Source: SAR324 cluster bacterium
GTDB lineage: Bacteria; SAR324; XYD2-FULL-50-16
NCBI GenBank assembly: GCA_028282885.1
Contig: JANQGX010000008.1
Location: 1 to 64,000 of the forward strand
Reading direction: 5' to 3'
DNA: 64,000 nt
Positions 28,018-58,694 of the stretch are shown here, in pieces. Within the stretch, counting starts at the first letter, position 1. Each line of letters starts with the position of its first letter. The translations under genes were made by a program, and so were the position numbers. A model generated the notes under the pieces. That model worked only from the letters and a program-made list of their open reading frames with translations, did no database searches and was not told the DNA's origin.

Positions 28018-28736
28018 AGCAGTAGGTTAGAGTTATTCAACAACCATCACGGTAAACCTGCGACAGGAAGAATAGGATTCAGGTTATACTATCATCATCG
28101 ACGCCTGCGCGAATCTGTCGACGGGGATTTGCTTAGTAAAGATGAAACCGTTCAGTTTGTGCTGCAAGAATTGTATCATTACCGACCATTGATTTGATCC
28201 GGCTTCGCCATTTGTTTTTGAGATGTTTGAACCATCCGATCCAAAACAGCTATTGACGGATATTAATGAAACCTTTCCGCTTCTATAGATATTAGTTGGT
28301 GCTCGCTGAATTCAATAGCCGGGCATTTCTGTTGACTTGATGGGATAATTCTAACCAGTTTGCATCAGTATCCTGACTTAACAATCAATATATTGACTAC
28401 GGATTAGCTTAAACTGAGTACGTTGTTATCTAAATCGCTGTAATATAAAATGAAGCAATAGTGGTATCCCATTTGCAGATTCAGATCGCATCCGGATTCT
28501 GGATTTACAGATTTCGGGTAATCCCAATTTAGGGAGATTTGGGATTCTCAAACGGAATCTGATTTCAAAATGGTTCCACAGGATAGTCAATCCGAAAAAG
28601 CAAGCGCAGACCAACTCGCGTTGATTTCTGTTTCATTTCGAGGTTTCACCTTACTCGACCAGATGTTCAGTGTCCCAATTTCATTATGGGTTTTCAAGGT
28701 GTTATTATCCCTTAACTATTGAATAAGAGATTGCTC
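28018..28736. other. Large divergent intergenic region
   Basis: About 720 bp without a convincing gene between the MBL hydrolase (minus) and the FAD oxidoreductase (plus). It holds the palindrome at 28383-28398 and, further right, an inverted arrangement (AATCCCAA paired with TTGGGATT, flanked by CAGATTC and GAATCTG, about 28467-28565) that could fold in RNA or reflect a remnant. Short plus-strand frames near 28040-28197 may be decayed coding sequence. Regulatory use is likely. Confidence 0.45.
28383..28398. promoter_or_regulatory. Second copy of the AT-rich palindrome
   Basis: AATCAATATATTGACT differs from the perfect palindrome at 27104-27119 at one base. It lies roughly midway between the divergent MBL and flavoprotein genes, so a bound regulator could affect either one. 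Confidence 0.5.
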
Positions 28737-30350
28737 ATGAATACCGAAAAAGTTGATGTGATCGTGATTGGTTCCGGGGTTTCCGGAATGACCGCAGCCG
28801 GTATGTTGACCAAGGATTGCGGAAAAAAAGTTGTGGTTTTTGAAAGAGCCCCGTTCCTGGGAGGCAGATGTCTCTCATATTACGGCAAAGGAGACAAAGT
28901 CATCGCCGATGGCGTTGAAATGGATGCAGAGGCTTTTAAAAAGTCCCTGGGTCATTCCCTCTGTTATCTCGGTAAGTGCACACCGGACATTGAGACCATC
29001 TTCGAAAAAGGACTTCTGGACGGACGGACATTCGAAGCCGGCGGACATGGTCTGTTCTGGGGAAACAACAATCGGGCGGATATTGTCCTCAACCATTTTG
29101 GAAAACATGTGGAGATGCCTCTTAATCGAGGGCTTGGCTTCATTGAATGGCAGGGATTGAACGAAGACGGAACCGTTAAGAAAACCGTCTCTCACCAGGT
29201 TCAGAAAGGTAAGCCATACCCCTGGATGAGTGAAGAGGGCTTTGCCAAAACCATGGAGCAGTTGACAGACATGGCTAAACTCACTTTTGAAGACCTGGGT
29301 AAGCTTACCCGCAAATCTCTGCAGGAGTGGCTTGAAGAGCGGGGAATGCATCCGGAAGCCTATAACTATATCAAAGTTCTGGCCGCTTGTCAGACAGGGC
29401 AAGCTGAACCCAGGATGACTTCCGCTGCAGATTTCCTTGGTTACATGGCGATGGCGAAGTATATTCGCATGAATCTGATCACCGGCTCGGTTGCAACGGC
29501 GGATAAACCGGGCACTATCGCCATACCGCTGGCCCTGGAACAGCCGATTAAAGACAACGGAGGTGAAATCTGGCGGAATACACCGGTGACTGAAGTTGTC
29601 ATCGAAAACGGTGTTGCAAAAGGCGTGAAATATCAAAAGGATGGTCAGGAGCACACCCTGATGGCGGACAATGTGATTTGCACCATTCCTCCCAAGTATG
29701 CATTCCAGGTTCTGCCTGAAACAGCCTTTCCGCCGGAATGGGTCTCCTTTCTCAAGGAAGATCATTGGGGAATCGGGCTCTTGACAGGTTGGGCAGGCAC
29801 CAAACGCTCCATCATTGAGGACATTGGCATTGATAAACGTTCCTTTATCTGGATGCCGGGTATCACAACCGAGGAAGAAGGATTCATCGGTGTCGTGGAT
29901 ATGGTGATGTGTGAGTTTGACGCCTGGAAAGATGGAGAGGCAGATCGTGCACCTGACGGTAAAACCGAATATCTTTTCTCAACTGCTTTGACGGACGAGG
30001 AAATGCGTAATCCCGAAAGGGTTAACCTGGTAATCGAACGCTGTGAAGCCTGGGCCAGGGCGAATTTCCCAACGTGGGATGAAGATGTTGAATTCATTCT
30101 CTGGACACCATCCCCGGATGCCCTCGGTACAACACGCCCGGTAGGTACGGACCGTCCGAAGCACAAAAATCCTTATGTAGCAGGCTTGTGGTTCGCGGGT
30201 GATCAGTACGGTGAAAGGAGCTGGGGTTGCGGAGTGGATCTGGCGGCCCTATCAGCGGTTGTTTGTGTGGACCAGATGATGGGAACGAACTTTGAGGAAG
30301 AGCTCTTTCCCGAGCATCATCGGGGTATTGATATCGAACCGGCCGAATAA
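28737..30350 (+). CDS. Phytoene-desaturase-like FAD-dependent oxidoreductase
   Basis: A 537-residue flavoprotein. The ATG at 28737 is chosen over a TTG six codons upstream because it places the dinucleotide-binding fold at the usual distance. FAD binding is shown by VIVIGSGVSGMTAAG (GSGVSG 12-17) and the following VVFERAPFLGGRC. The C-terminal FAD motif is GLWFAGDQYGERSWGCGVDLAA. This layout matches the amine-oxidase/phytoene-desaturase group, which oxidises or isomerises C-C bonds in isoprenoid-like lipids. It leads the acyl-CoA region on this strand, so a terpenoid or steroid-like substrate is possible. No signal peptide is present. Confidence 0.82.
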   Translation: MNTEKVDVIVIGSGVSGMTAAGMLTKDCGKKVVVFERAPFLGGRCLSYYGKGDKVIADGVEMDAEAFKKSLGHSLCYLGKCTPDIETIFEKGLLDGRTFEAGGHGLFWGNNNRADIVLNHFGKHVEMPLNRGLGFIEWQGLNEDGTVKKTVSHQVQKGKPYPWMSEEGFAKTMEQLTDMAKLTFEDLGKLTRKSLQEWLEERGMHPEAYNYIKVLAACQTGQAEPRMTSAADFLGYMAMAKYIRMNLITGSVATADKPGTIAIPLALEQPIKDNGGEIWRNTPVTEVVIENGVAKGVKYQKDGQEHTLMADNVICTIPPKYAFQVLPETAFPPEWVSFLKEDHWGIGLLTGWAGTKRSIIEDIGIDKRSFIWMPGITTEEEGFIGVVDMVMCEFDAWKDGEADRAPDGKTEYLFSTALTDEEMRNPERVNLVIERCEAWARANFPTWDEDVEFILWTPSPDALGTTRPVGTDRPKHKNPYVAGLWFAGDQYGERSWGCGVDLAALSAVVCVDQMMGTNFEEELFPEHHRGIDIEPAE

Positions 30351-30597
30351 AACCCTTATTCATTTTAGCTGCGTTTAACGCGGAGAGGTCACCTGTCACT
30401 CCAGGAATACCCAGGGGTGGCAGGAATCAGGATTGGATAACGATCAAAGAATCCTTTGATCCAATAATAGAACTGACAATTGCCGATATCTATTTGTGTG
30501 ACGATTCAGCACACCACAATCCCCTTTGGGGTCAAATGATGAATGGTCACCTTTTCGAAATATTCAGGGATGAAACACTCCCGTAAGGAGAAAAACA

Positions 30598-32037
30598 ATG
30601 GGATTAATAACACCGGAACAATTCAGAGAGAGTTTGAACGACGGCCGTGTCGTCTACTACAAAGGTGAAAGAGTTGAGAATGTATCCACCCATCCCAATT
30701 TAAGTGTCTGCGTGGATCTGGCAGCGATCGACTATGAAATGTGTGAAGATCCTAAACACAGGGAACTGGCGGTCATGGAAGATCCGGAAACCGGAAATGA
30801 AATCAGCCGATATTACTACAAGCCCCAGAATGCCGATGATCTTCTGAAGGCGCATAAACTGATCGTTACGGCAACAGAACTGGGTGATGGTTATATTCCA
30901 TTGGCCCATGATATCGGTGCGGATGCTTTGAATGCGATCGAGATCACCGCAAACATGATGGGGAATAAGGAATATATGACCCGCATTGCAAATTATCGGA
31001 AAGTGTTGCAGGAGCAAGATCTCTCTACCTGTGCCGCAGTTACTGACGTAAAAGGAGACAGGATGTTGCGCCCGTCGCACCCCGAGCAGGCCCATCCCGA
31101 TTTCAATCTGCGCATCGTTGATAAAAACGATGACGGTATCATTGTTCGCGGCTGCAAAATCCATATCACCGGTGCTGCTTATTGCAATGACATCATTGCG
31201 ATTCCCTGTCGGGCCATGACTGAAAACGATGGTGACTATGCCGTTGCGTTCGCCATTCCTGCCAATACCAAGGGAATCAAACAGATTTGTCGTCCCTTTA
31301 CTTCCCATATCAGTTCACTCGAATTCCCGAATTCAAGGCCCTTGAGGGTTCATACCGATTCCATGATCATATTTGAAGACGTTCTGGTGCCCTGGGAAAG
31401 GGTTTTTCTCTGCGGTGAATGGAAGTTTGCGGCAACCATGGTTTACAACTTTGCCTTGATGCATAGGAGAACCGGCTGTTCATACAGAATTCCGCTTTCC
31501 GAGCAATTTGTCGGGGTTGCCGCGGCAATTGCGGAATACAACGGTATCTCCTCGGCTCCACATGTCAAGGAGAAGCTGATCGATCTGATCATCTACCTGG
31601 AAACCCTGAAATCGCTTTCCAAGACAGCCTGCTACGATTTTGTCATGAGAGGCGGTCTCGCAGTTCCCAACCCTATAGCTACCAATATGGCAAAGTATCA
31701 TTTTGCCCACAATTATCATGATGTGGTGAAGATTGTTGAAGACCTGGCGGGTGGATTGCTTGTGACAGCGCCAACCTACAAGGATTATCAATTGCCGGAG
31801 CTGCAGGCCGATATTGATAAATACCTGCAGGCTGCCAAGCATATATCCACTGAAAACCGATTGCGGATGCTGGATCTGATCCGTCGCATCACAACGGCTG
31901 ATCTGGAAACCATCTGTCTGCACGGTGAAGGCTCGCCAATGGCTGAGAGAATGACCATCTTCATGGAGGCCGGAGGTGTGTTGAAGGAATGTCAAAAACT
32001 CGTTGAGGAGATGGCACAGGTGGATCGCAACAAATAA
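30598..32037 (+). CDS. 4-hydroxyphenylacetate 3-hydroxylase / 4-hydroxybutyryl-CoA dehydratase superfamily flavoprotein
   Basis: A 479-residue protein of the HpaB/AbfD fold, whose members use FAD(H2) to hydroxylate phenols or to dehydrate 4-hydroxybutyryl-CoA. It starts after TAAGGAG. The family core CAAVTDVKGDRMLRP (about 145-159) and the acyl-dehydrogenase-like middle are clear. The dehydratase branch needs a [4Fe-4S] cluster held by C99, C103, H292 and C299; here the matching region (GYIPLAHDIGADALN, 98-112) has no cysteine, and H289/C294 are spaced differently. It should therefore not be called a 4-hydroxybutyryl-CoA dehydratase. Reaction unknown. Next comes an SDR gene 44 bp downstream. 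Confidence 0.82.
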   Translation: MGLITPEQFRESLNDGRVVYYKGERVENVSTHPNLSVCVDLAAIDYEMCEDPKHRELAVMEDPETGNEISRYYYKPQNADDLLKAHKLIVTATELGDGYIPLAHDIGADALNAIEITANMMGNKEYMTRIANYRKVLQEQDLSTCAAVTDVKGDRMLRPSHPEQAHPDFNLRIVDKNDDGIIVRGCKIHITGAAYCNDIIAIPCRAMTENDGDYAVAFAIPANTKGIKQICRPFTSHISSLEFPNSRPLRVHTDSMIIFEDVLVPWERVFLCGEWKFAATMVYNFALMHRRTGCSYRIPLSEQFVGVAAAIAEYNGISSAPHVKEKLIDLIIYLETLKSLSKTACYDFVMRGGLAVPNPIATNMAKYHFAHNYHDVVKIVEDLAGGLLVTAPTYKDYQLPELQADIDKYLQAAKHISTENRLRMLDLIRRITTADLETICLHGEGSPMAERMTIFMEAGGVLKECQKLVEEMAQVDRNK

Positions 32038-32081
32038 CCCGGTTATCGGAACCGAATCACAGATTAAACCAAGGAGGAAAA

Positions 32082-32846
32082 ATGGATTGTTCTTATCTCT
32101 CATTTGACAAAAAAGTGGTTATGGTAACCGGCGGTAGTCGCGGTATCGGCAAATCCATCGCCCTGGCTTTTGCCGATGCGGGTGCGGATATCATTCTCGC
32201 CAGCCGGAAGCTTGAGGACCTGGAAAAGGTTGCGGTTGAGATTCGCGATATGGGCCGAAAAGCTCTCTGTGTCCCGACCCATGCCAAGAAACCCGAAGAC
32301 CTGCAGAACCTTGTGGATAAATCCATGGCGGAATATGGCAAGATCGATGTCCTGGTCAATAACGCCGCTACGAATCCTGCCATGGGAGATATCGTCGATA
32401 CGGATGAGAAAGTCTTCAACCATATTATCGATACCAATCTCAAAGGCTATTTTCTGCTCAGCAAGCTGGTCGGTAAAATAATGCAGACCCGGAAATCAGG
32501 AAACATCATCAATATCTCTTCTGCCGGTGGCGTAAGCCCTGCTGCCGGTCTGGGACCCTATTGTATCAGTAAGGCCGGGATCAATATGTTGACGAAACAG
32601 ATGGCCATGGAGTTGGGACCATACAATGTCAGGGTCAATGCTATCGCACCAAGAATTGTCAAAACCAGTTTCAGTGAAGCGCTCTGGAGCAATGACAAGC
32701 TGATGGCGCAGGAATATAAGCTGACACCGCTGAAAGTAGTCGCAACGCCGGAAGAGATGGCACAAGGGGCTTTGTACCTGGCCTCTTCCGCCACCAACTA
32801 CATGACAGGCCATATACTGGTCATCAACGGTGGCGCTTTCTTCTAA
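32082..32846 (+). CDS. Short-chain dehydrogenase/reductase (FabG-like)
   Basis: A 254-residue NAD(P)-dependent oxidoreductase preceded by AAGGAGG. It has TGGSRGIGKS (nucleotide loop), VLVNNAATNP, the catalytic Ser in NISSAGG and Tyr/Lys in PYCISKAG, and the C-terminal TGHILVINGGAFF. It probably oxidises a 3-hydroxyacyl-CoA or reduces a keto intermediate in this pathway. Its 3' end overlaps the ferredoxin gene by 17 bp, so the two are translationally linked. Confidence 0.92.
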   Translation: MDCSYLSFDKKVVMVTGGSRGIGKSIALAFADAGADIILASRKLEDLEKVAVEIRDMGRKALCVPTHAKKPEDLQNLVDKSMAEYGKIDVLVNNAATNPAMGDIVDTDEKVFNHIIDTNLKGYFLLSKLVGKIMQTRKSGNIINISSAGGVSPAAGLGPYCISKAGINMLTKQMAMELGPYNVRVNAIAPRIVKTSFSEALWSNDKLMAQEYKLTPLKVVATPEEMAQGALYLASSATNYMTGHILVINGGAFF

Positions 32847-33090
32847 ACTGGAAGTCAACCAGGAAGTCTGCGCCGGATGCGGAACCTGCGAATTGAATTG
32901 CCCGGAGCAGGCTATTACCTGCTCCGACAGGATTCGGATCGATTCTGACCGTTGCAGGAAATGCCTGGAATGTCTCAATCGTTGCCCCACGAGAGCCATC
33001 ATCGATTCGGATTCAAAATCGAATCCCGGAAAAGCCAACACCATCATCGGGTCGAATGGGGAAATCCCAGGAGATAAAGGAACCAACTGA
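32830..33090 (+). CDS. 2x[4Fe-4S] ferredoxin-like protein
   Basis: An 86-residue electron carrier starting with GTG inside the end of the SDR gene. Two clusters are indicated by CAGCGTCELNCP and CRKCLECLNRCP, each CxxCxxCxxxCP. The last 25 residues are a flexible, polar tail not typical of short ferredoxins. It ends 2 bp before the next gene. It may shuttle electrons to or from the neighbouring flavoproteins. Confidence 0.9.
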   Translation: MALSSKLEVNQEVCAGCGTCELNCPEQAITCSDRIRIDSDRCRKCLECLNRCPTRAIIDSDSKSNPGKANTIIGSNGEIPGDKGTN

Positions 33091-33092
33091 AC

Positions 33093-33989
33093 ATGGCTTC
33101 AATTCACACTGATCTGACAAGATTGCTGGGAATCAAGTACCCGATTATCGGTGCTCCCATGTTTCTTGTATCTTATGAAGCATTGACCATTGCTGTTTCA
33201 GAAGCTGGTGGCCTGGGAATGTTTCCGTTGCCCAACTACCGCTCCCTGGTTGATCTGGAAGAGGCACTCAAAACAATCCGTCAGGCAACTCAAAAACCGA
33301 TCGGGGTTAACATCCACCTCTCCGGAAAATTCCCCTGGGAAGAGCAACTGGCTATCTGTCTTGATATGGGGGTGTCGTTTTTTATTACTTCTCTCGGAGA
33401 TCCGGGTTTGATTATCGACAGGGTTCATCAGAAAGGTGGTGCCGTTTTTGCGGATGTCGTGTCTCTAAACCAGGGAATACGAGCCAGGGAAAGAGGTGTT
33501 GACGGACTTGTTGCTGTAGCTGCAGGCGCAGGTGGGCATGGTGGCAGGATCCCTACAATTGTTCTGGTTCCGTATCTTAAAGAGCAAACAGGGCTTCCCA
33601 TTGTAGCAGCCGGTGGTGTCAGCACAGGTCCACAACTCGCCTCTGCGCTTTGCATGGGAGCATGCGGAGCGATTACCGGAACGAGACTGATTGCCTCGGA
33701 TGAAGCCAGGGTTGGTGAAGATTATAAGAAGGCTGTAATCGAAGCCGGGCCGGACGGCATTGTTGTAACGGACCGGCTGACCGGCAATAATGCCAGTTGG
33801 ATTGCTAAAAGTATCGAAGGAGTGGAAAACGGGCCGGATCTCAGGTCAAAAAAATGGAAGACTCTCTGGAGTGCCGGACAAAGCGTTGCCCAGGTCGAAG
33901 GGATCAGGCCTGCGGGGGAGATTATCAAGGAGATGGCTGAAGAGTGCGTCCTGGCTATCAAAAAAATCAATCAGGTCTGCATTGCCTGA
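33093..33989 (+). CDS. Nitronate monooxygenase-like flavin enzyme
   Basis: A 298-residue FMN TIM-barrel protein of the nitronate-monooxygenase/FabK family. It begins LLGIKYPIIGAPMFLVS. It has the phosphate-binding AAGGVSTGPQLASAL and GACGAITGTRL segments and the AAGAGGHGGR loop, which carries the His found in active nitronate monooxygenases. Genes of this type often sit in fatty-acid and polyketide-like catabolic loci, where they may act as enoyl reductases rather than on nitronates. It follows the ferredoxin gene by 2 bp. Confidence 0.85.
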   Translation: MASIHTDLTRLLGIKYPIIGAPMFLVSYEALTIAVSEAGGLGMFPLPNYRSLVDLEEALKTIRQATQKPIGVNIHLSGKFPWEEQLAICLDMGVSFFITSLGDPGLIIDRVHQKGGAVFADVVSLNQGIRARERGVDGLVAVAAGAGGHGGRIPTIVLVPYLKEQTGLPIVAAGGVSTGPQLASALCMGACGAITGTRLIASDEARVGEDYKKAVIEAGPDGIVVTDRLTGNNASWIAKSIEGVENGPDLRSKKWKTLWSAGQSVAQVEGIRPAGEIIKEMAEECVLAIKKINQVCIA

Positions 33990-34024
33990 TACCGGAAGGA
34001 CCATGAAATTTTGGAGACGATATA

Positions 34025-35170
34025 ATGGATTATAGTTTCACAAAAAAGCAGGAGGAGTTAAGGGAAAAAACTGCTGCTTTTGTCGCCAGGGAGATTCCCA
34101 GGGAGGTTGCCCGAAAGGTTGATGAAACCGGGGAGTTTCCTCATGAACTGATGCGAAAGCTGGCGGACGAGGGATTCTGGAAAATCAATGTACCCACCAA
34201 GTACGGTGGTGATGGCGGCAATGTTATCGACCTGATGATTTTTTTTCAGGAGATATCCCGGGCACTGCCTGTTCTCTCTTGGACGGCGGGAGACGTGCTC
34301 CTGTATGGCAATAATATCCTCAAAGTCAACGGTAATGAAGAGCAGCGTGAGAAGTACCTGCCGGGGCTGATGAAGGGCGATCTGCTGTTCTGTTTTGCCC
34401 TGACGGAACCCGATGCGGGCTCGGATGCTGCCAATATTGCCATGAGCGCTAAACAGCGAGGAGGTGAATACCTGCTCAATGGTAACAAAATGTTCATCTC
34501 CGGCGCCAGTGTTGCCAATATCGCCGTAACCAATACCCGAACAGGACCGGATCGCTACAACGGCATCACCTCTTTTCTGGTGGATACGAGTTCGGAAGGA
34601 TACAGTGCAACCCCGATTAAAAAACTCGGTTATAAAGGTTCGGATACCTGCGAAGTGGTTTATAAAGATGTCCGGGTGGAAGAACAGGATATCCTTGGCG
34701 GAACCGAATGTCTGAACAAGGGTTGGCAGCAGATGATGCGACTTTTGAATGGAGAGAGACTGGTCTTGTCAGCGTGTGCCAACGGCATCTCGGAAGCTGT
34801 TCTGGCCGAAACCATTTCATATGTCAAAAAAAGGAAAAAGAGTGGCAGCCCCGGCATTAAATTCCAGGCGATTGAACACAAAATAGCAGAGATGGCGGCC
34901 CAACTGGAAGCGGCCAGACAGCTCTCCTTCTATTCAGCCTGGTTGATGGCGGAAGGAAAAGAGTGTGTCAGGGAGACCTCTATGTGCAAGGTCTTCTGTG
35001 CGGAAACCGGGAAACAGATTGCTCATGGTGGAATGGAGATTACCGGCGCTTACGGATACGATATGGAATCCGATATCCAGCGGTTTTTTCGGGATATCCC
35101 GATTCTGGCTATTGGTGGGGGAACATCCCAGATCCAGAAAAATGTTATCGCCAAAACGCTTGGGCTGTAA
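34025..35170 (+). CDS. Acyl-CoA dehydrogenase, catalytic-type subunit
   Basis: A 381-residue FAD acyl-CoA dehydrogenase. It shows CFALTEPDAGSDAAN, YLLNGNKMFISGA and RDIPILAIGGGTSQIQ at the C-terminus. The medium-chain catalytic position is Gly (IGGGTS), but Glu244 in NGERL aligns with the isovaleryl-type base, so this subunit should be catalytically competent. It is followed 83 bp later by a related protein that lacks the base, which suggests a heteromeric α/β enzyme as in bacterial steroid side-chain oxidation. Confidence 0.92.
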   Translation: MDYSFTKKQEELREKTAAFVAREIPREVARKVDETGEFPHELMRKLADEGFWKINVPTKYGGDGGNVIDLMIFFQEISRALPVLSWTAGDVLLYGNNILKVNGNEEQREKYLPGLMKGDLLFCFALTEPDAGSDAANIAMSAKQRGGEYLLNGNKMFISGASVANIAVTNTRTGPDRYNGITSFLVDTSSEGYSATPIKKLGYKGSDTCEVVYKDVRVEEQDILGGTECLNKGWQQMMRLLNGERLVLSACANGISEAVLAETISYVKKRKKSGSPGIKFQAIEHKIAEMAAQLEAARQLSFYSAWLMAEGKECVRETSMCKVFCAETGKQIAHGGMEITGAYGYDMESDIQRFFRDIPILAIGGGTSQIQKNVIAKTLGL

Positions 35171-35253
35171 TCACCCATTCCGGTACTGCAGTCTTTAGAT
35201 CGTAAGGAAGTTTTTAGTAAGATAGAAACTCGAACCCTTCCATGGAGTAGTCA

Positions 35254-36390
35254 ATGGATTTTGAATTAACACGTGAAAACCTGATGATCCGCGATGCCAT
35301 CCGCAATTGGGTCTCCAAGGAGTGCAACAGGGATGTTGTGGGTGAACTGGATGCCGACTGGGCATTTCCCGGAAAGCTGTCGAAGAAACTGGCCAAGCTG
35401 GGATTCAGCGGAATAACCGTTCCCGAGGAGTTTGACGGTGAGGGAAAAAATATCCTCGGGTCATGCCTGGTAGTGGAGGAGATTGCCTATGCCTATCCTG
35501 CATTGGCTGCTATTTTTGCAGCTTCAGCTTTTAACGGCGGAGCTGTCATCGCTGAATTGGGGAGCCAGCAACAAAAGGAGAACCACCTTCCTGGCATATC
35601 AAGGGGAACCTTTCTGGTGGCCCTGGCGATCGTTGATGAGGACAGCAGAGCGGATATTCCCGCAGTAAAGGCATTAAAGAGTGATGATGATTTCGTTTTA
35701 TCCGGGAAAGCAAGTAATGTGCATCTGGCAGATCAATCAAAACTGATGATTATCTCTGCTCAAACCGGTACTGAAGTTGGAGAAACCACCCTTTTCTGTC
35801 TGGATATAGCGCAGGATGGAATCTCTATTGAACCGAGAAAAAACCTGGGATATCGCGGAGCAGGTTTTTGCGATGTCAATCTGACAAATGTCCATGTTCA
35901 TCAGGATCAGATCCTTGGTGGGAAAGCCGGATTGAACCGGGGAGTGGAGCAGGAAAAACAGATTGTGTCTTACCAACTCCTGGCTAATGCAGCGGCCGCT
36001 GTCGGGATTGCCAGAGGTGCCCTGGATTACGCAATAGACCATGCCCGGCAGCGGGTTCAGTTTAGTCAGAAAATAGGCAGTTTTCCGGCTATCGGTCACA
36101 AAATGGCGGAGATTGCGTATCGATGTGAAGCAGCCCAGTTTATGGTCTATAAGGCAGCCTGGCAGGCTGACCAGGGACAGGATTTCAGCAGGGCGGCTGC
36201 CGGGGCAAAATGCCTTGCTGCCGAATCTGCCGTGAATTCCGCAAAAGAAGGACTCCAGATCCTGGGTGGATACGGATACACAATGGAATATGATATCCAG
36301 CGCTATCTCAGGGATTCAATGGCATCTCTATTTGTTGGAAAAACCCTGGATGCTCTGAAAGATCAAATCAGTGTTTCTCTGGGATTATAG
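35254..36390 (+). CDS. Acyl-CoA dehydrogenase-like protein lacking the catalytic base
   Basis: A 378-residue protein with the complete acyl-CoA dehydrogenase fold, but neither known catalytic position holds Glu. At the medium-chain position the sequence is SLFVGKTLD (V360), and at the isovaleryl position it is Q241. The flavin-region TEP motif is also degenerate (ALAIVDEDSRADIP). It directly follows a catalytically intact paralogue. In actinobacterial steroid catabolism, α2β2 dehydrogenases pair one active and one base-less subunit; the same arrangement is inferred here. An alternative is a non-dehydrogenase member of the fold. Confidence 0.88.
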   Translation: MDFELTRENLMIRDAIRNWVSKECNRDVVGELDADWAFPGKLSKKLAKLGFSGITVPEEFDGEGKNILGSCLVVEEIAYAYPALAAIFAASAFNGGAVIAELGSQQQKENHLPGISRGTFLVALAIVDEDSRADIPAVKALKSDDDFVLSGKASNVHLADQSKLMIISAQTGTEVGETTLFCLDIAQDGISIEPRKNLGYRGAGFCDVNLTNVHVHQDQILGGKAGLNRGVEQEKQIVSYQLLANAAAAVGIARGALDYAIDHARQRVQFSQKIGSFPAIGHKMAEIAYRCEAAQFMVYKAAWQADQGQDFSRAAAGAKCLAAESAVNSAKEGLQILGGYGYTMEYDIQRYLRDSMASLFVGKTLDALKDQISVSLGL

Positions 36391-36591
36391 AAGTGAGTTG
36401 ATTTTCGTAACTGTTCAACCATTGCAATTCAAATAAACGGAGGCATTCACTTGTTTATTCATCCTTGCCCGGAATATCCAAATCATCATCAGGGGATGGA
36501 ATTAAATAAGATAGATGCAATCCCGGTTTGAGCAGTTACTGTGGTTTTTACAAATATGAAGGTTCACCTCAAATTAAAAAGGGAATGAGAT

Positions 36592-38229
36592 ATGGAAAAA
36601 CCATGGTTAAACGCATACGTGGAAGGAGTAAGCAGTCAGCTCGAATACGAAGAAGCAACAATGTCCGATTCCCTGACGGTTTCAGCAGGGAAACATCCGG
36701 ATGTAACCGCACTAATTTACTTTAAGAACAAGTTCACCTTCAGGCAGTTCAATGACCTGGTCAATCGTATGGCGAATGCCCTGGTAGGCCTCGGTGTTAA
36801 TAAGGGAGACAAGGTTTCATTGCTGCTGCCCAATGTTCCGCAGGTTGCCATCGCCACCTACGCTGTCTGGCGGATCGGTGGAATCGTTGTCATGAACAAT
36901 CCCCTCTATACCGACAAAGAACTGGAACACCAGTTTATAGATTCAGAGTCCAAATTCCTGGTTACCCTCGATTTGCTGGCTCCCAGGATGCTGGCTTTGA
37001 AGTCGAAAACAGGGATTGAAAAAATCATTGTTGCTCATATCAGGGACTATCTTACATTCCCATTAAAACAACTGTTCCCGATTCTGGCAAAAGATAAACA
37101 CAAGGATATACCACCTCAGCAGGATGTATATGAATGGCTCGACCTTATCAAGAAATATCCTGCCACCGATCCGGGAATCAAGGTCGATTTCAATGAGGTG
37201 GCCGCTCTGCAATACACCGGGGGGACCACCGGTGTCAGCAAGGGGGTGGTGCTTAGTCATTCCAATTTTTCCAAGAACTGTCAGCAAGGACTGGCCTGGA
37301 TATATAAGTTGAAACCGGGTGAATCCACAGTGCTGGGAAGCCTGCCGATCTTTCACGCTTTTGGTCTTTTTGCCCTGAACATGTGTGTTAGAGGCGTCTG
37401 GTCCATGGTCCTGATCCCGAGGCCTGAACCCGAGTTCATTATGGAAGCGGTTCACAAAAACAAAGTTAATCTCTTCCCCGGCGTTCCCACCATGTTCATC
37501 GGTATTCTCAATCACCCAAAACGGGATAAGTTTGATCTGTCCTCACTCGATATTTGTGTTTCAGGAGCGGCTCCCTGTCCAGTTGATGTGATCAGACGGT
37601 TTGAAGACCTGACCAAGGCCCAGATTGTGGAAGGATTTGGTATTTCGGAAGCGAGTCCAGCGACCTGCATCAATCCGGTTGGTGGCATCAATAAACCGGG
37701 ATCCATCGGTCTTCCTTTGCCCGATACCTTGGTGAAGATAGTGGATCTTTACGATAAATCAAAAGAACTGGGGCCAAATCAGCCCGGCGAGCTGGTGGTC
37801 TTCGGCCCCCAGGTTTCCGATGGGGGCTATCTCAATATGCCCGAAGAAACAGCGGAAACCTTTCAGGATGGTTGGCTGTATACCGGCGATATCGCCCAGA
37901 TGGATGAAGATGGCTATACCTACATCGTCGATCGTAAGAAAGACATGATTATTGCGGGAGGCTACAACATCTACCCCAGGGAAATCGATGAAGTCCTCTT
38001 TACACACCCCAAAATCGCCGAGGCCTGTGCCAAAGGTGTGGCGGACGACTATCGTGGAGAAACGGTAAAAGCTTTTGTGGCGCTGAAGCAGGGAGAGTCA
38101 ATAACCGCCGATGAGGTTATAGAACACTGCAAGAAAAGTCTGGCTGCCTACAAGGTGCCGAAAATCGTTGAATTCAGGGAAGAACTTCCCAAAAGTGCGG
38201 TTGGTAAAATTTTGAGAAAAGAACTCTAA
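36592..38229 (+). CDS. Long-chain/aryl acyl-CoA ligase (AMP-forming)
   Basis: A 545-residue adenylate-forming ligase that makes acyl-CoA from a carboxylic acid, ATP and CoA. The P-loop-like YTGGTTGVSKGVVLSH is in the middle, followed by GFGISEASP, YTGDIAQMDEDGY, DRKKDMIIAGGYNIYPREID (hinge) and the C-terminal catalytic Lys in AVGKILRKEL. It resembles FadD-type enzymes. It has its own 201-bp upstream gap but lies on the same strand as the dehydrogenases and thiolase-like gene and probably supplies the CoA ester that they process. Confidence 0.92.
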   Translation: MEKPWLNAYVEGVSSQLEYEEATMSDSLTVSAGKHPDVTALIYFKNKFTFRQFNDLVNRMANALVGLGVNKGDKVSLLLPNVPQVAIATYAVWRIGGIVVMNNPLYTDKELEHQFIDSESKFLVTLDLLAPRMLALKSKTGIEKIIVAHIRDYLTFPLKQLFPILAKDKHKDIPPQQDVYEWLDLIKKYPATDPGIKVDFNEVAALQYTGGTTGVSKGVVLSHSNFSKNCQQGLAWIYKLKPGESTVLGSLPIFHAFGLFALNMCVRGVWSMVLIPRPEPEFIMEAVHKNKVNLFPGVPTMFIGILNHPKRDKFDLSSLDICVSGAAPCPVDVIRRFEDLTKAQIVEGFGISEASPATCINPVGGINKPGSIGLPLPDTLVKIVDLYDKSKELGPNQPGELVVFGPQVSDGGYLNMPEETAETFQDGWLYTGDIAQMDEDGYTYIVDRKKDMIIAGGYNIYPREIDEVLFTHPKIAEACAKGVADDYRGETVKAFVALKQGESITADEVIEHCKKSLAAYKVPKIVEFREELPKSAVGKILRKEL

Positions 38230-38330
38230 TGGACAAATTCCTTCCGAGTAACTTTTGTTGGAAAGCTAAATCGCCTTCCTGAAACGTTATTCCGGCTTGT
38301 GGAATCAGATAACTTTTATAAAGGGTCAAG

Positions 38331-39515
38331 ATGAGTAATTTAAAAGGTAAGGTTGCTTTTGTGGGAATTGGAGAAGTCCCTACAGGAAGACACGCCGACA
38401 AGGCTGCAATCTATCATGCAATCAAATCTGCCAAAATGGCGATTCGGGATGCGGGAATCAATAAGGATGAAATCGATTATGTTTTGCCTACGGCATCTCT
38501 ATACAGCCCCGCGTTTAACACTGAGATGGTCACCTGTAGGGTGGTTGAAGAGTTGGGATTGAAAAACTGCAAGAAAAACGTGCAGATTTTTTCCGGAGGA
38601 TCCAGCAGCAGTAACGCACTATTAATCGCCAGTACACTGATCAACCAGGGAATGGCACGCTATGTTCTGTTTGTCCATACTGACAGATTGGGAACGGGAG
38701 TGAACCTGCAACAAGGCATCGATCTTTTCTCAACTGCGGGAATATCGGCAGAATGGGAAGTCCCCTTCGGTCAACACTACTCTTCAATTGCCGCTCTCGC
38801 CACAACCCGATACCAGTATGAAACCGGCTGTACGGATGAGGAGATGTCGGCAGTTTGTGTATCCAACCGGAAATGGGCCGAACTGAATCCAAACGCTTTC
38901 TTCAGAAAGCCTCTTACCATTGAAGAGGTAATGAGTTCAAAAATGCTCTCAACACCCCTGCGGGCCAAACAGTCCAATATGCTGTTTGACGGCGGAGCCG
39001 CCTTTGTCCTGACCTCCGCGGAACGAGCCCGGGACGTGGCAGATAGGCCGGTATACCTGCTGGGTGAGGGCGGGGTTGTCACCCATTTTGTTTATTCCCA
39101 GGAGAAGGACATCACCCGGTATGGTTGGGCTGAAGCCGGAAAAACAGCATTTGAACAGGCTGGATTGACGCCGAAGGATATTGATGTGGCTGAAATCTAC
39201 GATTCCTATCCTGTCTACCAGATCATCGGATTGGAAGAGCTCGGATTCTGCGAACGCGGTGAGGCCGGAAAGCTGTTTCTCAATGGTGATACCTGGCCGG
39301 GAGGTAAACTACCGTGTACCACAAATGGGGGAATGCTGTCCCAGGGGCACACAGGGGCCGGTGGAGCTGTTGCCTTAATGGTTGAAGCAGTCCGACAACT
39401 GATGGGCAAAGCGGGTGAGCGACAGGTCAAAGATGCCAGGTTTGCAGTGGAAACTGCGACCGGGGGAACTTATATGGATTCACAGGTGACAATTCTGGGA
39501 ACCGAGATACCGTAA
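38331..39515 (+). CDS. Thiolase-fold protein without catalytic cysteines (probable acyl-CoA retro-aldolase)
   Basis: A 394-residue SCP-x/Ltp-type thiolase-fold protein. In real thiolases the nucleophilic Cys lies in a short CxSG loop; here residues 84-95 read VQIFSGGSSSSN, with no Cys. The second Cys near the C-terminus is replaced in VETATGGTYM (376-377), while the oxyanion His is kept in SQGHTGAGG (H340). Tyrosines stand in AEIYDSYPVY (290-296), as in the steroid aldolase Ltp2. The next gene encodes a DUF35 partner, as in Ltp2 systems. Retro-aldol cleavage of a side-chain acyl-CoA is more likely than thiolysis. Confidence 0.85.
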   Translation: MSNLKGKVAFVGIGEVPTGRHADKAAIYHAIKSAKMAIRDAGINKDEIDYVLPTASLYSPAFNTEMVTCRVVEELGLKNCKKNVQIFSGGSSSSNALLIASTLINQGMARYVLFVHTDRLGTGVNLQQGIDLFSTAGISAEWEVPFGQHYSSIAALATTRYQYETGCTDEEMSAVCVSNRKWAELNPNAFFRKPLTIEEVMSSKMLSTPLRAKQSNMLFDGGAAFVLTSAERARDVADRPVYLLGEGGVVTHFVYSQEKDITRYGWAEAGKTAFEQAGLTPKDIDVAEIYDSYPVYQIIGLEELGFCERGEAGKLFLNGDTWPGGKLPCTTNGGMLSQGHTGAGGAVALMVEAVRQLMGKAGERQVKDARFAVETATGGTYMDSQVTILGTEIP

Positions 39516-39621
39516 GTTAAAATCAAAATTGAATCAATTTAATGAGTTAAGGACTTAAGAAGAAATTATAGAATTGAAATCTGAAGATGGTGAGAAGCAA
39601 CTAACAATGAAAGGAGAAAAA

Positions 39622-40029
39622 ATGACACAACGACCAAAGCCGGTACCGGTAGTTAATCCCTGGGCCAGACCTTTCTGGGATGCTGCCATGGAGGATCGTC
39701 TGACCTTCCAGAAATGCAAGGATTGCGGGGCGAACATATTCTACCCGAGGATCGCCTGCACCGAATGCTTTTCAGACAACCTGGATTGGGTGAACGCATC
39801 CGGGAAAGGAACGATTTACTCTTATACGGTTGTGGAAAATAACTCGCCGACGGCTTTTCTGGGCGACTGCCCCTATGTCGTCGCTATTGTCAGACTTGAT
39901 GAGGGACCTCAGATGCTGACCAATATTATCAATTGCGATCCCTATTCAATTCAGTGCGATATGCCGGTAAAAGTGGTGTTTGAACAATTAAACGAAGAGT
40001 TCAAGTTGCCGAAGTTTCAGCCCATCTGA
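39622..40029 (+). CDS. DUF35 zinc-ribbon/OB-fold protein, partner of the thiolase-like protein
   Basis: A 135-residue protein. The ATG at 39622 is preceded by AAAGGAG; the frame opens 16 codons earlier without a ribosome site. The rubredoxin-like zinc ribbon uses C32, C35, C46 and C49 (CKDCG and CTECF), followed by an OB-fold domain with GKGTIYSYTVV. DUF35 proteins bind thiolase-fold partners and are required for activity of the Ltp2-type aldolases and archaeal HMG-CoA synthase. Its position 106 bp after the thiolase-like gene fits this. Confidence 0.9.
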   Translation: MTQRPKPVPVVNPWARPFWDAAMEDRLTFQKCKDCGANIFYPRIACTECFSDNLDWVNASGKGTIYSYTVVENNSPTAFLGDCPYVVAIVRLDEGPQMLTNIINCDPYSIQCDMPVKVVFEQLNEEFKLPKFQPI

Positions 40030-40226
40030 GACGAAAATGAAGTTAAATCTGACGAAGGGAGACCGATCCCGGCATCAAAGCCTGGTATGAGTTAGCGACT
40101 CCCAATATGTTCAATAACATATTAAGCCTGGCGATGATGGTGCTCATGGATCGTCAGGCTCTTATTAGAGCTTAGTAGACAAGACAATTCTTCTCCTTTG
40201 TATTAACCCCCATCTAAAGAGGAAAC

Positions 40227-40676
40227 ATGGCTCCCAGTAAGTTTGGTGACGATTTCAATGTGGGTGATATTTATCATACCCAGGCGATCACTTTGACGGA
40301 AACGCACATTGTGAATTGGGCGGGTTTGACAATGGATTTTTACCCGCTACACATGGACAAGGAATATGCAGCCAAAAGCCAGTTTGGGGAAAGGCTGGTT
40401 CATGGTCCTTTGATATTTGCCCTGGCTGTTGGCCTGGTCGGTACGGCCGGATTTGCAGGGGATTCGGCTATAGCCTGGCTGGGTGTCAACAATATGAAAA
40501 TGCTGGGCCCGGTTAGGATCGGGGATACGATCAGGGTTGAAGTTGAAGTCAAAGAAAAACGTCCTACCAAAAACCCGGCCCAAGGCGTGCAAACCTGGAG
40601 ATACACCGTTAAAAACCAAAAAGATGAATCGGTAATGGAACTGGACTACATCCTCATGTTCCATATGCGCGTTTAA
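40227..40676 (+). CDS. MaoC-family (hot-dog) enoyl-CoA hydratase
   Basis: A 149-residue single hot-dog domain. The hydratase motif is present: MDFYPLHMDKEYAAKSQFG, then LVHGPLIFALA, giving the catalytic Asp37 and His42. It should hydrate a trans-2-enoyl-CoA produced by a dehydrogenase, in the same way that ChsH1-type MaoC proteins feed steroid side-chain aldolases. Length is at the compact end of the family. It is 23 bp before the second ligase gene and follows a 197-bp gap after the DUF35 gene. Confidence 0.9.
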   Translation: MAPSKFGDDFNVGDIYHTQAITLTETHIVNWAGLTMDFYPLHMDKEYAAKSQFGERLVHGPLIFALAVGLVGTAGFAGDSAIAWLGVNNMKMLGPVRIGDTIRVEVEVKEKRPTKNPAQGVQTWRYTVKNQKDESVMELDYILMFHMRV

Positions 40677-40699
40677 ATCCATACCATCCGGGAGGAAAC

Positions 40700-42274
40700 A
40701 TGATTACTCTGACCATTGGCGATCTGTATGACCGATGTGTGCAGTTTTTCGGCGACAGCACAGCCATCACCTTCAAAGATCGTTCTTATACCTATCGGGA
40801 TATGGGACATCATGCGGATTGCCTTGTTACCGCCCTGGATAGAGTAGGGCTGAAAAAAGGTGACAAGGTCGGTTTTCTGATGGCCAATTGCCCTGAATAT
40901 ATCTTTTGCGAAATTGCGGTTGCCAAGCTGGGATGCACCCGAGTGCCCTTGGCGGTCCTGCTTAATCCGGATGATCATGTTTACATGCTCAATCTGGTTG
41001 AATGTACGACACTGATCTATCACGAGAAACTGGCAGATCGTATCAAGGAGATGATGCCCAAACTGGAAACCGTTACCAATTATATTTGTGTTGCTGAAGA
41101 CGCTTCCAGCGTGATGGATGGCCACCTGCATATGCAAACCCTGATGAAGGAAAATCAACCTTCGAACCTGAAAGTCGAAATTGATCCAGAAGATCTGGTG
41201 GGGATTTACTTTACCGGCGGAACAACCGGCAAGCCTAAAGGGGTCATGCTTTCACACAGGGCCTGGGTTTACACAGTGCTGATGGAAACCCTGGATTTTG
41301 ATTTTGGCCGTGAAGAGGTTTTTGCTTACATGACGCCCCTGACACACGCCGGTGGGTGTTTGATGTTGCCGGTGTTCCTGCGGAAAGGCAGGTGTGTAAT
41401 TCTCGACCATTTTGATCCCGGGGAGTTTCTAGAGTGTGTACAGAAAGAGAATGTCACTATGACTTTTCTGGTCCCCACCATGATCTACGTTCTCCTCGAT
41501 CATCCGGATTTGAACAACTATGATCTGAGCAGCCTGAGAAACGTCATTTATGGAGCCTCTGCCATCGCACCGGAGCGGCTGAAACAAGCTGTAACGACTT
41601 TTGGTCCAATTTTTACCCAGCTTTTCGGCCAGACGGAAGCGCCGATGGTGTTTAGCTCCCTGCCCAGGGAGGATCACGTAATTGAAGATCCTGAACGGGA
41701 AAGGCAGATTTTCGCATCTGCTGGTCGTCCTACCTTTCATGCGGAAGTCAAACTCATCGGGGATGATGGCAAGGAGGTCGAACAGGGAGAGAAAGGTGAG
41801 ATAGTGGTTCGCTGTGCTAACATGATGAGTGGTTATTATAAAAATCCCGAAGCCACCGCAGATACCATCAAAAACGGTTGGCTCCACACCGGGGATATTG
41901 CCAGACAGGATGAGGAAGGATTTATCTATATTGTCGATCGGAAGAAGGATATGATTATCAGCGGCGGATTCAACATATTCCCCCGCGAGATCGAGGATGT
42001 TCTATTTGAACATCCGGCTGTAAAGGATGCAGCGGTTATCGGGTCGCCTCATGACAAATGGGGAGAAGAGGTCAGGGCCGTGGTTGTTTTGAGGGAGAAG
42101 GATGCAGCAACGACAGAAGACCTGATCGCATTTGTAAAAGAGAAGAAAGGCAGCCTGGTATCACCCAAGAAGGTTGACTTCTGGGACAGCATTCCACTGA
42201 CCAACCTGGGAAAGGTCGATAAAAAGGCCATCCGTGCCAAGTATTGGGAAGGTAAAGACAGGATGATTTCTTAA
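40700..42274 (+). CDS. Acyl-CoA ligase (AMP-forming)
   Basis: A 524-residue adenylate-forming ligase, preceded by GGGAGG. Signature elements are YFTGGTTGKPKGVMLSH, the FGQTEAPM substrate region, HTGDIARQDEEGF, DRKKDMIISGGFNIFPREIE and the C-terminal Lys in NLGKVDKKAIR. It is not close to the other ligase at 36592 beyond family motifs, so it likely accepts a different acid. It ends the acyl-CoA operon and is followed by a strong terminator. Confidence 0.92.
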   Translation: MITLTIGDLYDRCVQFFGDSTAITFKDRSYTYRDMGHHADCLVTALDRVGLKKGDKVGFLMANCPEYIFCEIAVAKLGCTRVPLAVLLNPDDHVYMLNLVECTTLIYHEKLADRIKEMMPKLETVTNYICVAEDASSVMDGHLHMQTLMKENQPSNLKVEIDPEDLVGIYFTGGTTGKPKGVMLSHRAWVYTVLMETLDFDFGREEVFAYMTPLTHAGGCLMLPVFLRKGRCVILDHFDPGEFLECVQKENVTMTFLVPTMIYVLLDHPDLNNYDLSSLRNVIYGASAIAPERLKQAVTTFGPIFTQLFGQTEAPMVFSSLPREDHVIEDPERERQIFASAGRPTFHAEVKLIGDDGKEVEQGEKGEIVVRCANMMSGYYKNPEATADTIKNGWLHTGDIARQDEEGFIYIVDRKKDMIISGGFNIFPREIEDVLFEHPAVKDAAVIGSPHDKWGEEVRAVVVLREKDAATTEDLIAFVKEKKGSLVSPKKVDFWDSIPLTNLGKVDKKAIRAKYWEGKDRMIS

Positions 42275-42366: not shown

Positions 42367-43554
42367 CTAGTCGGCGGTCATCCAGTCGGTGAGAATTTTG
42401 GTTTCACCCTCGGCGAGGCATTGAATGAGAAAGACGCTATTCTGCCCCTGCCTGGTTGTTGGATCATTAGGATTGTAGGGTTTGTAGTTGATCTTCCCGA
42501 AAATTCCCTGGAAATCGTTGATACCTTCAAGTTCCTTCACCAGGGTTTCACGGGTCAGGTTTCGACCTGCCCGTTTCATCGCTTCAACAATCGGCTCCAT
42601 GAAGCCGATTCCGGCATACCAGAAGATTCCCCAACGCTCACCCGGAGCAAACTTTTCATAGGCGTCTTTCTTATATTTCAGAAGCAACGGATTCTGTGAA
42701 TCGGCTGTCAAACCGAAACTGCCCGTAATCAGGCCTTCCAGGGCACCCCGGCTGATATTAAAAAGGAGAGGAAAGTCCGAACAGGTACTGGTACTCATCC
42801 ACTGCGTTTCGAGACGCATGGCCTTTCCTGTTAATATGGTTCGGATTACCGAGGAGGGGGTTACCCAGAGAAGCACGGCATCAGCTTTGGCATTACGAAG
42901 CTTCATGATGATGGGTTTCATGTCCTTGTCCGCGACATTGAGTGGCACCGTAGCCGCCAGTTCCATTCCCAGTTCTTTGGCAGCTTTTTCTGCACCCCTC
43001 AGGCCATCCTTACCATACTCATCGTTCTGGTATACAATGGCAACCTTCTTCTTTTTCAGGGAGTTCACCGCATATTTAACCAGAATTTGTGCCTCATCAT
43101 AATAGTAGGGATAGGTTGCAAAGAGGTACTTGCTGGGAGGGTTGGTCCAGACTCGTGACCCGGTAGCTGGTCCCACCCATGGAATTTTCTGATTTATGAT
43201 GTAGTCTTTAACAGCCATTCCGGGCGCAGTTCCCACACCAACTACCCAGGCGAAAATTCCGTGGCTGCTCTCCTGCAGTTCCTTTACTCCATGAATGGTC
43301 TTGGCTGGATTATATGCATCATCAAAATGGTGATAAATGATTTTCCTGCCGTGAATTCCACCCTCAGCGTTGATCATTTTGAAAAGAGCTTCGGTTGCCC
43401 GCGGAACCGATCCCCAAGCTGCTGCTGGCCCTGTTTGCGGTCCCCAGCTTCCAATGTGTATTTCTGTATCCGTTATTCCGTCAGCCGCTGTCAGGCTGAG
43501 TGGTAGCCATAAACTTATAAAAAGCAGTCCAAACCATCGCAACATTTGTTTCAT
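42367..43554 (-). CDS. Branched-chain amino acid-type (LivJ-like) ABC substrate-binding protein
   Basis: A 394-residue periplasmic binding protein. The start at 43554 is clear: GGAGGGCAATT stands just before ATG and a signal peptide follows (ending near LSLTAADG). The mature N-terminus reads TDTEIHIGSWGPQTGPAAAWG, and KVAIVYQNDEYGKDG is typical of the Peripla_BP_6 family. No permease or ATPase genes adjoin it, so it is an orphan that must use transport genes elsewhere. Relatives near acyl-CoA genes often bind aromatic or carboxylic acids, so it could import the substrate of the preceding operon. Confidence 0.9.
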   Translation of the reverse strand: MKQMLRWFGLLFISLWLPLSLTAADGITDTEIHIGSWGPQTGPAAAWGSVPRATEALFKMINAEGGIHGRKIIYHHFDDAYNPAKTIHGVKELQESSHGIFAWVVGVGTAPGMAVKDYIINQKIPWVGPATGSRVWTNPPSKYLFATYPYYYDEAQILVKYAVNSLKKKKVAIVYQNDEYGKDGLRGAEKAAKELGMELAATVPLNVADKDMKPIIMKLRNAKADAVLLWVTPSSVIRTILTGKAMRLETQWMSTSTCSDFPLLFNISRGALEGLITGSFGLTADSQNPLLLKYKKDAYEKFAPGERWGIFWYAGIGFMEPIVEAMKRAGRNLTRETLVKELEGINDFQGIFGKINYKPYNPNDPTTRQGQNSVFLIQCLAEGETKILTDWMTAD

Positions 43555-43854
43555 AATTGCCCTCCTTTTTTTTAAACTTTTGCCACCCCGACGACCCTGA
43601 TATTGTCCTTCAATTTCAAAAAGATAAATCAGGTTCGGGGCGAATGGCTGAAAATGGTACCTCACTATTCCAGAAAGCTTTTACTATTGCAACAGAAAAA
43701 CCGGTTGATAAGCTCCCGCCTGCTTTGAGAGCAAACACCGATAAAAGGCATTCTCTCGGATCCATCAACCTGGCTAGCTTTGATGGATGGTTCTAATGTG
43801 TTGTTATCTTTGAGTTCAGGATATCACCTGAAGACTAACGCGAGGTGAATTCAT

Positions 43855-48808: not shown

Positions 48809-49002
48809 ATATGCACTACAATTAGATAGCCAAGCCTTGCCAGCGTGAATGCCGAGGCCCGGACAGGTATAAGGGTGAATGAGTCGGATCGATTGGATTT
48901 GAGAATAGAGAAAGCACAGGCTGATTCGCCGGATCTATTGCGATTCGGGAAGCAATATTTTTTAATAGTATCGTGATATCAAACCGTTGGAAAACAGATA
49001 CA

Positions 49003-49791
49003 ATGAGTGAAGAGCAAACTCCAAAATACATTCATGTTTACAGGAAACTGCGCCAACTTATTGAAGAGGGTTATGCGCCTATCGGATCCAAACTACCACC
49101 GGAAAGCAACCTTGTTGAAACCTATCAAGCAAGCCGGATAACAATCAGAAAAGCCCTGGGCTTGCTGGTGCATGAAGGTTTTGTACAAAGCAAACGGGGC
49201 AGCGGTCACCGGGTGGTTTCTAATCGGGTGATATCATCAAGTTGTTTTACATCTTTTACCGAAATGGTATTGGCTGCCGGAATGCAGCCATCCACCCAAA
49301 TCATTCAGATCAAAACGGTCCTTGCACGGAGTTTTATCAATCAGACCTTACCCACCGGCATCAAAGATAACGAAAAATTGGTCCTGGTTGAGAGACTGCG
49401 TCTGGTTGATCGGATTCCTAAAATCGTGATGCGTGCCTGGATTCCCAAACGATTGGTACCGGGATTAAAAGAAGAGGATTTTGCCTGCAACGGGCGGGAG
49501 CAATCTATCCTGAGTTTACTGCAGAGAAAATACGGTTTGTCCATCGATTATGGCTCAGAGGAGATCAGGCCGGTGTTACCGAATGAAAGAATCGCCGATT
49601 TGTTACAGATCCCCCCCGACAGACCCATAATCCGACATTTTTGTGCGGTATTTTCCCGTACGGAAACACTGATTATGTACGAAGAGTCGTTTCGTGTTGA
49701 TGTCCTGTTTTTTGAATTGAACGGTGCCGAACGGAAGTTACAGATGAAACTTAACCAGTCTTTGGAGAGTATTGTTTATGAATCGTCTTGA
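49003..49791 (+). CDS. GntR-family regulator with UTRA domain (HutC subfamily)
   Basis: A 262-residue transcription factor, start chosen at the ATG at 49003 (a GTG 10 codons upstream is alternative). The winged helix is clear: IHVYRKLRQLIEEGYAPIGSKLPPESNLVETYQASRITIRKAL (read in parts), then GFVQSKRGSGHRV. The rest is a UTRA ligand domain, which usually binds sugars or sugar phosphates. It heads the sugar operon (epimerase, DhaL, DhaK, aldolase) and probably represses it through the TTGT-N5-ACAA repeats. Confidence 0.88.
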   Translation: MSEEQTPKYIHVYRKLRQLIEEGYAPIGSKLPPESNLVETYQASRITIRKALGLLVHEGFVQSKRGSGHRVVSNRVISSSCFTSFTEMVLAAGMQPSTQIIQIKTVLARSFINQTLPTGIKDNEKLVLVERLRLVDRIPKIVMRAWIPKRLVPGLKEEDFACNGREQSILSLLQRKYGLSIDYGSEEIRPVLPNERIADLLQIPPDRPIIRHFCAVFSRTETLIMYEESFRVDVLFFELNGAERKLQMKLNQSLESIVYESS

Positions 49792-49865
49792 TCAGCGAGA
49801 AAATATGTTGGCAATTCTGCCAGATATCCAATACGGCTTTTACTTGTAAACAAACGAGGAAAACA

Positions 49866-51333: not shown

Positions 51334-51334
51334 T

Positions 51335-52336: not shown

Positions 52337-52366
52337 TCAATACTTTTTAAAAATAAAGTTGGGTAA

Positions 52367-53374: not shown

Positions 53375-53413
53375 TCGCTGACGCTCTTCAGTCCAAAGCA
53401 ATTGTGCGAACTG

Positions 53414-55909: not shown

Positions 55910-55921
55910 TTTGGAGTTCTC

Positions 55922-56782: not shown

Positions 56783-56785
56783 AAC

Positions 56786-58689: not shown

Positions 58690-58694
58690 TCACT

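Follow-up and report, generated by a model that had tools for sequence, protein, structure and literature searches.

A probable retro-aldol acyl-CoA degradation operon built around a Cys-less thiolase-fold protein in a SAR324 cluster bacterium

Described DUF35-associated aldolases and the SAR324 locus

In the DUF35-dependent retro-aldolases that we found in the literature, the substrates are steroids or ibuprofen. Two of these aldolases have been solved, Ltp2-ChsH2 from Actinobacteria (PDB 6ok1), which acts on steroids with a C3 side chain, and Sal-Shy from Comamonas (9myr), which acts on bile acids with a C5 side chain, and in both Ltp2 and Sal the Tyr of a YDxx motif is the catalytic base (PMC12329534). 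Sal is incapable of thiolysis because a Gly occupies its nucleophile site, and replacement of its Cys304 by Ser abolished activity (PMC12329534). In the IpfD-IpfE system of Sphingomonadaceae, ibuprofen cannot be used without the gene of a thiolase-like protein, and the step concerned has been described as an acyl-CoA retro-aldolase cleavage (PMC9195938). Here we analyze a 64,000-nucleotide stretch from a SAR324 cluster bacterium (assembly GCA_028282885.1, contig JANQGX010000008.1, positions 1 to 64,000; "the window"), in which a run of + strand genes (28719-42274), delimited using open reading frames (ORFs), translations and Pfam, encodes a thiolase-fold protein that lacks the thiolase cysteines, together with a DUF35 protein, a MaoC hydratase, acyl-CoA ligases and acyl-CoA dehydrogenases (ACADs). 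On the basis of homology, we consider it probable that this operon is catabolic and serves a bulky, branched, alicyclic or aryl carboxylic acid, with one round of beta-oxidation ended by retro-aldol cleavage and not by thiolysis. In our search of the open-access literature, no paper described this gene cluster. An earlier sequence-only reading of the locus remarked on its presence in a Gram-negative; this is not new, as such systems have already been described in the proteobacterial Sal-Shy (PMC12329534, PMC11321319) and in the ibuprofen system IpfDE (PMC9195938).

Active site of the thiolase-fold protein

Alignment of the thiolase-fold protein demonstrated that it carries SGGSSS at the thiolase nucleophile site, with Gly replacing Cys; YDSY where SCP2 thiolases carry HDCF, with Y290 replacing the His; and TGG at the C-terminal CxG site, where the second Cys is gone. 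Of the GHPxGAT motif of thiolases only GH is retained, its His being H340. The Cys-less thiolase fold proposed from the sequence alone is thus borne out at all three of the motif sites that lost a thiolase residue. A single scan of a genome collection gave 29 orthologs (65-89% identity), a short chance-like match (L075) being left aside. All orthologs have [SA]GG[SA] at the nucleophile site, YDSY and His340 are invariant in about 29 of them, and Y290 and H340 remain invariant in an alignment of 24 sequences with identity down to 37%.

The window protein shares with Ltp2-ChsH2 the Cys-less thiolase fold, the Gly-Gly nucleophile site, the base Tyr in YDxx, a DUF35 partner and a preceding MaoC hydratase; however, Ltp2 has YDHF and Tyr344, whereas the window protein has YDSY, with His340 at the Tyr344 position. 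With Sal-Shy it shares the Cys-less nucleophile site, a YDxY motif, DUF35, a MaoC hydratase and a Gram-negative host, but Sal has YDCY with the essential Cys304, and Gln352, and at these places the window protein has Ser292 and His340. Judged by these residues, the window protein is neither an Ltp2 nor a Sal, and its novelty lies in a YDSY/His340 residue set that does not vary across a broad clade and is found in a wide context without steroid genes. The best match in both sequence and fold is a Sphaerobacter "thiolase" (4u4e), also Cys-less, with YDSF and a His at the same place, although our tree puts it in another subclade. The benzoylsuccinyl-CoA thiolase BbsAB (7pxp) resembles the window system in that a thiolase fold is paired with DUF35, there for anaerobic catabolism of an acyl-CoA, but BbsB retains its Cys (SACSAG), as well as HDAF and GHPIGAS, and groups with the thiolases, so that we ruled it out as a Cys-less precedent. 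IpfDE, likened here by description only, acts after a ring dioxygenase, and the window system after a MaoC hydratase.

A maximum-likelihood tree built from 35 proteins contains a branch, with support of 100/99, that has on one side the Cys-less set (the window protein, its orthologs, plasmid homologs, 4u4e, Ltp2 and Sal), and on the opposite side SCP2 thiolase, BbsB and archaeal thiolases, along with five further thiolase-fold proteins from the bacterium's own genome. The subclade of the window protein (100/100) is well separated from Ltp2 and Sal. An AlphaFold model of the protein (predicted template modelling score, pTM, 0.88) has a thiolase fold, and its nearest Foldseek matches are 4u4e, 7yvy and 6ok1.

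Several points weigh against a retro-aldol reading of this protein. The tree is unrooted, and therefore does not prove a single origin of Cys loss. Foldseek mixes aldolases with thiolases, so that the fold is sure and the reaction is not decided by it, and the H340 loop was modelled at a predicted local distance difference test (pLDDT) value under 50. Ser292 sits naturally where a Ser kills activity in Sal (Cys304Ser); it is therefore no simple stand-in, and the site of the window protein must work differently. The thiolase GH motif is retained in the window protein, unlike in Ltp2 and Sal, and our literature search found no assayed enzyme of the window subclade.

Organization of the operon

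The genes and features of the locus are as follows, with the start of the DUF35 gene picked from ortholog comparison.

28719-30350, + strand: CrtI/phytoene-desaturase-like FAD oxidoreductase, Amino_oxidase family (Pfam PF01593)
30598-32037, + strand: HpaB-fold flavoprotein, nearest the 4-hydroxybutyryl-CoA dehydratase branch, without its [4Fe-4S] cysteines
32082-32846, + strand: SDR-family oxidoreductase (Pfam PF13561)
32830-33090, + strand: ferredoxin-like protein with two 4Fe-4S motifs (Pfam Fer4)
33093-33989, + strand: FabK/nitronate-monooxygenase-like flavoprotein (Pfam PF03060; partial TIGR03151 match)
34025-35170, + strand: ACAD1, acyl-CoA dehydrogenase; isovaleryl-type base E244 at nt 34754-34756
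35254-36390, + strand: ACAD2, acyl-CoA dehydrogenase homolog without both base positions
36592-38229, + strand: acyl-CoA ligase 1, FadD-like (Pfam PF00501; best NCBIfam match PRK06710, under cut-off)
38331-39515, + strand: Cys-less thiolase-fold protein, probable retro-aldolase; G89-G90 at nt 38595-38600, Y290 at 39198-39200, S292 at 39204-39206, H340 at 39348-39350
39574-40029 (frame; likely start 39622), + strand: DUF35 (ChsH2-type) zinc-ribbon/OB-fold protein with four Cys (Pfam PF01796, PF12172)
40227-40676, + strand: MaoC/R-specific enoyl-CoA hydratase (Pfam PF01575; PDB matches)
40700-42274, + strand: acyl-CoA ligase 2 (Pfam PF00501; 55-82% orthologs in 18 loci)
42367-43665, - strand: Liv-type periplasmic substrate-binding protein, convergent with the operon (Pfam PF13458)

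The genes at 34025-42274 are long open frames with Pfam matches well above cut-off, and the gene set that had been read from the sequence (a pair of ACADs, two acyl-CoA ligases, the Cys-less thiolase fold, DUF35 and MaoC) is confirmed in full and on one strand. The HpaB-like, ferredoxin and phytoene-desaturase-like genes that had been counted as extra members of this module are present, but lie upstream of it, at 28719-33090.

The DUF35 protein, with its four Cys arranged as CxxC and CxxC, is most like the DUF35 proteins of the two solved aldolases (ChsH2-DUF35, 6ok1_B, and Shy-DUF35, 9myr_B), and the MaoC protein has an intact D-x4-H motif (DFYPLH) that is retained in the orthologs inspected. 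In contrast to Ltp2-ChsH2, MaoC and DUF35 are separate proteins in the window, the ACADs are not near ChsE1-E2, and a steroid-ring gene was not found; Sal-Shy has a MaoC-DUF35 fusion and a Cys3His1 zinc site, where the window has separate genes and a four-Cys DUF35. Long ORFs hinted at a DUF35-MaoC fusion in proteobacterial loci as well, but their extra residues are out-of-frame shadow sequence.

Of the 29 ortholog loci, 28 have DUF35 after the thiolase-fold gene and 26 have MaoC next, the loci without DUF35 or MaoC stopping at a contig edge, so that the three genes are adjacent in all 26 loci not broken by a contig end. This arrangement is more than chance. Acyl-CoA ligase 2 recurs in 18 of the 29 loci, ACAD1 in 14, the CrtI-like gene in 11, the HpaB-like gene in 10 and the FabK-like gene in 9, and one Desulfobacteraceae locus (L068) repeats most of the window operon. 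The hosts, which are metagenome-assembled genomes (MAGs) whose bins may be contaminated, are Thermodesulfobacteriota, alpha-, beta- and gammaproteobacterial Pseudomonadota, actinomycetes (Actinomycetota) and syntrophomonads (Bacillota). Remoter Cys-less homologs accompanied by DUF35 occur commonly on plasmids from Rhizobium, Rhodococcus, Achromobacter and roseobacters; no relatives were found on viral contigs.

Two further arrangements of thiolase-fold and DUF35 genes were observed. At L041 (G000:C63:31057-33957), two tandem thiolase-fold genes, both with degenerate active sites, are followed by two DUF35 genes. A KASIII/HMG-CoA-synthase-like protein with a fused C-terminal DUF35 domain occurs in several of the ortholog loci (L048, L050, L051 and L057), and unlinked in the bacterium's own genome (L044); it mostly adjoins a Cys-bearing SCP2-type thiolase, which suggests a second thiolase/DUF35 module.

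Acyl-CoA dehydrogenases and upstream flavoenzymes

The isovaleryl-type Glu position has a catalytic role in the ACAD family. In ACAD1, the Glu of the EGT motif is replaced by Gly (GGGT), but the isovaleryl-type Glu, E244, is retained (LLNGERLVL) and is present in every ortholog examined. ACAD2 has neither Glu, which upholds the earlier suggestion that one ACAD of the pair is base-less, and is a probable partner subunit of ACAD1. Two adjacent ACADs, one of them base-less, recall the ChsE1-ChsE2 heterotetramer; the closest similarity lies elsewhere, however, with ordinary short-chain ACADs and CarC, and 5lnx, CarC and 2dvl all far outscore the ChsE1-E2-like 6wy8 chains. The pairing is not universal, as several proteobacterial loci have a single ACAD.

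Homologs of the CrtI-like protein (61-63%) are encoded immediately upstream of the thiolase-fold gene in at least six proteobacterial loci, and SDR homologs (61-75%) are found in six loci. We rejected the CrtI-like protein as a delta24-steroid desaturase or limonene dehydrogenase of the CtmAB type, since the covalent-FMN consensus G-F-L/R-X-N/S-T/L-H-A (PMC11061730) has no match in the window or in its relatives. The HpaB-like protein most resembles 4-hydroxybutyryl-CoA dehydratase and vinylacetyl-CoA isomerase; we rejected it as the former, however, since the [4Fe-4S] cysteines are gone, the CFQRC region reading P-LAHD in the window; these cysteines are likewise missing in 10 HpaB-like relatives, several of them from sulfate-reducer MAGs. 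The FabK/nitronate-monooxygenase-like protein is possibly an enoyl-CoA reductase.

Proposed pathway and alternative readings

The constant partner of the thiolase-fold protein is a hydratase (MaoC), not a 3-hydroxyacyl-CoA dehydrogenase. Together with the loss of the thiolase cysteines, this leads us to propose a sequence of ligase, dehydrogenase, hydratase and C-C cleavage. An acyl-CoA ligase would activate the carboxylic acid, ACAD1 would 2,3-dehydrogenate the acyl-CoA with ACAD2 as its base-less partner, and MaoC would hydrate the enoyl-CoA to a 3-hydroxyacyl-CoA, which the thiolase-fold/DUF35 complex would cleave, releasing a short acyl-CoA together with a ketone or aldehyde. By analogy with Ltp2 and Sal, Y290 would take the proton off the 3-hydroxyl; H340, which occupies the position of the acid Tyr344 of Ltp2, would on that ground most likely protonate the enolate. 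The HpaB-like, CrtI-like, SDR and FabK-like enzymes may either make the substrate ready beforehand or consume the carbonyl product. The retro-aldol logic is well supported at the sequence level because of the Cys-less clade, the invariant residues and the constant DUF35/MaoC adjacency.

A bolder version of this proposal, which we advance only tentatively, is that the clade represents a third catalytic design (Tyr290 as base, Ser292, His340 as general acid) in a widespread, mostly anaerobic, non-steroid route for branched, alicyclic or aryl acids. The SAR324 genome encodes a COX1-type oxidase, so that the pathway need not be anaerobic there. Such a design, if true, would allow a tertiary 3-hydroxyacyl-CoA to be cleaved without biotin carboxylase and an HMG-CoA-lyase type step. 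A clade with its own invariant site and MaoC in sulfate-reducer-type, proteobacterial and actinobacterial genomes would make retro-aldol cleavage a general solution for acids that beta-oxidation cannot finish, and many genes labelled "thiolase" or "lipid-transfer protein" would then be aldolases, of use in C-C bond-forming biocatalysis.

The retained GH motif would also suit thiolysis or acyl transfer, as Claisen-type reactions in which H340 and CoA act directly and no Cys nucleophile takes part. The related DUF35 complexes PhlABC and BbsAB carry out acyl-transfer or thiolysis chemistry, and TbSLP shows slow malonyl-CoA decarboxylase activity (PMC12329534). We nevertheless regard this as unlikely, as BbsB, SCP2 thiolase and 7yvy all retain the Cys nucleophile in our alignment, and the constant neighbor is MaoC and not a 3-hydroxyacyl-CoA dehydrogenase.

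We give slightly less credence still to a strict steroid or bile-acid side-chain module, with propionyl or acetyl cleavage as in Ltp2-ChsH2 or Sal-Shy. The gene logic, the Cys-less clade shared with Ltp2 and Sal and the DUF35 nearest to theirs are what such a module would have, and one ortholog (L074) comes from a Steroidobacteraceae MAG. Some or all of the DUF1302, DUF1329, YCF48 and MMPL genes, which are associated with hydrophobic substrates, flank the module at L068 (13839-21184), L060, L061 and L062, where they are likely a transport set for hydrophobic compounds. However, the window protein has neither Ltp2's nor Sal's second catalytic residue, the ACADs are nearest short-chain ACADs and CarC, far above the 6wy8 chains, and a smaller acid is suggested by the Liv-type uptake genes close to this operon and to five other loci. 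The check for steroid-ring genes elsewhere in the genome, proposed with the sequence-only reading, likewise went against a steroid: in this 93.6% complete genome HsaA gave at best 30 bits against a cut-off of 450 (a search that did not extend by name to KshA, KstD, HsaC, AcmB or anaerobic steroid markers), and a Rieske-domain search gave a single large match, of 375 residues, at L092 (G000:C91:264000-280999). Translations show a homoprotocatechuate-type meta-cleavage gene set around this oxygenase, which is why we rejected it as a steroid-ring candidate. What stands of the likeness to ChsE1/E2-ChsH-Ltp2 is therefore the logic of ligase, ACAD, MaoC and Cys-less aldolase, the clade and the Tyr base, and not the steroid substrate or the propionyl side chain.

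A biosynthetic role, in which an aldol or condensing enzyme would make a branched 3-hydroxyacyl-CoA on the way to a natural product and the CrtI-like and HpaB-like enzymes would do the tailoring, is very improbable despite the reversibility of aldol reactions and the tailoring-type flavoenzymes. We saw no PKS/NRPS (polyketide synthase/nonribosomal peptide synthetase) genes in the ORFs of the window, catabolic pathways typically have acyl-CoA ligases, ACADs and uptake genes, FadA/FadB occur in several (though only some) ortholog loci, and the orthologs are in sediment- and groundwater-type MAGs.

For the retro-aldol pathway, the substrate is most likely a branched, alicyclic or aryl carboxylic acid, by homology. 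Of the branched, isoprenoid or steroid-like acids suggested earlier, a branched acid stays among the best guesses, and a steroid finds no support in HsaA, the Rieske gene or the second catalytic residues. The isovaleryl-type base of ACAD1 hints at branched substrates, the Liv-type uptake genes at a soluble acid, and the MMPL/DUF1302 genes of other loci at a hydrophobic one. The Liv-type binding protein of the window has a 74% homolog at the equivalent place in L038/L046.

Farther along the window, at 48973-61168, translations show a GntR-regulated, sugar-type catabolic operon with DhaK/DhaL-like kinase parts and aldolase-like, ABC transporter, nucleoside-hydrolase-like and isomerase-like proteins.

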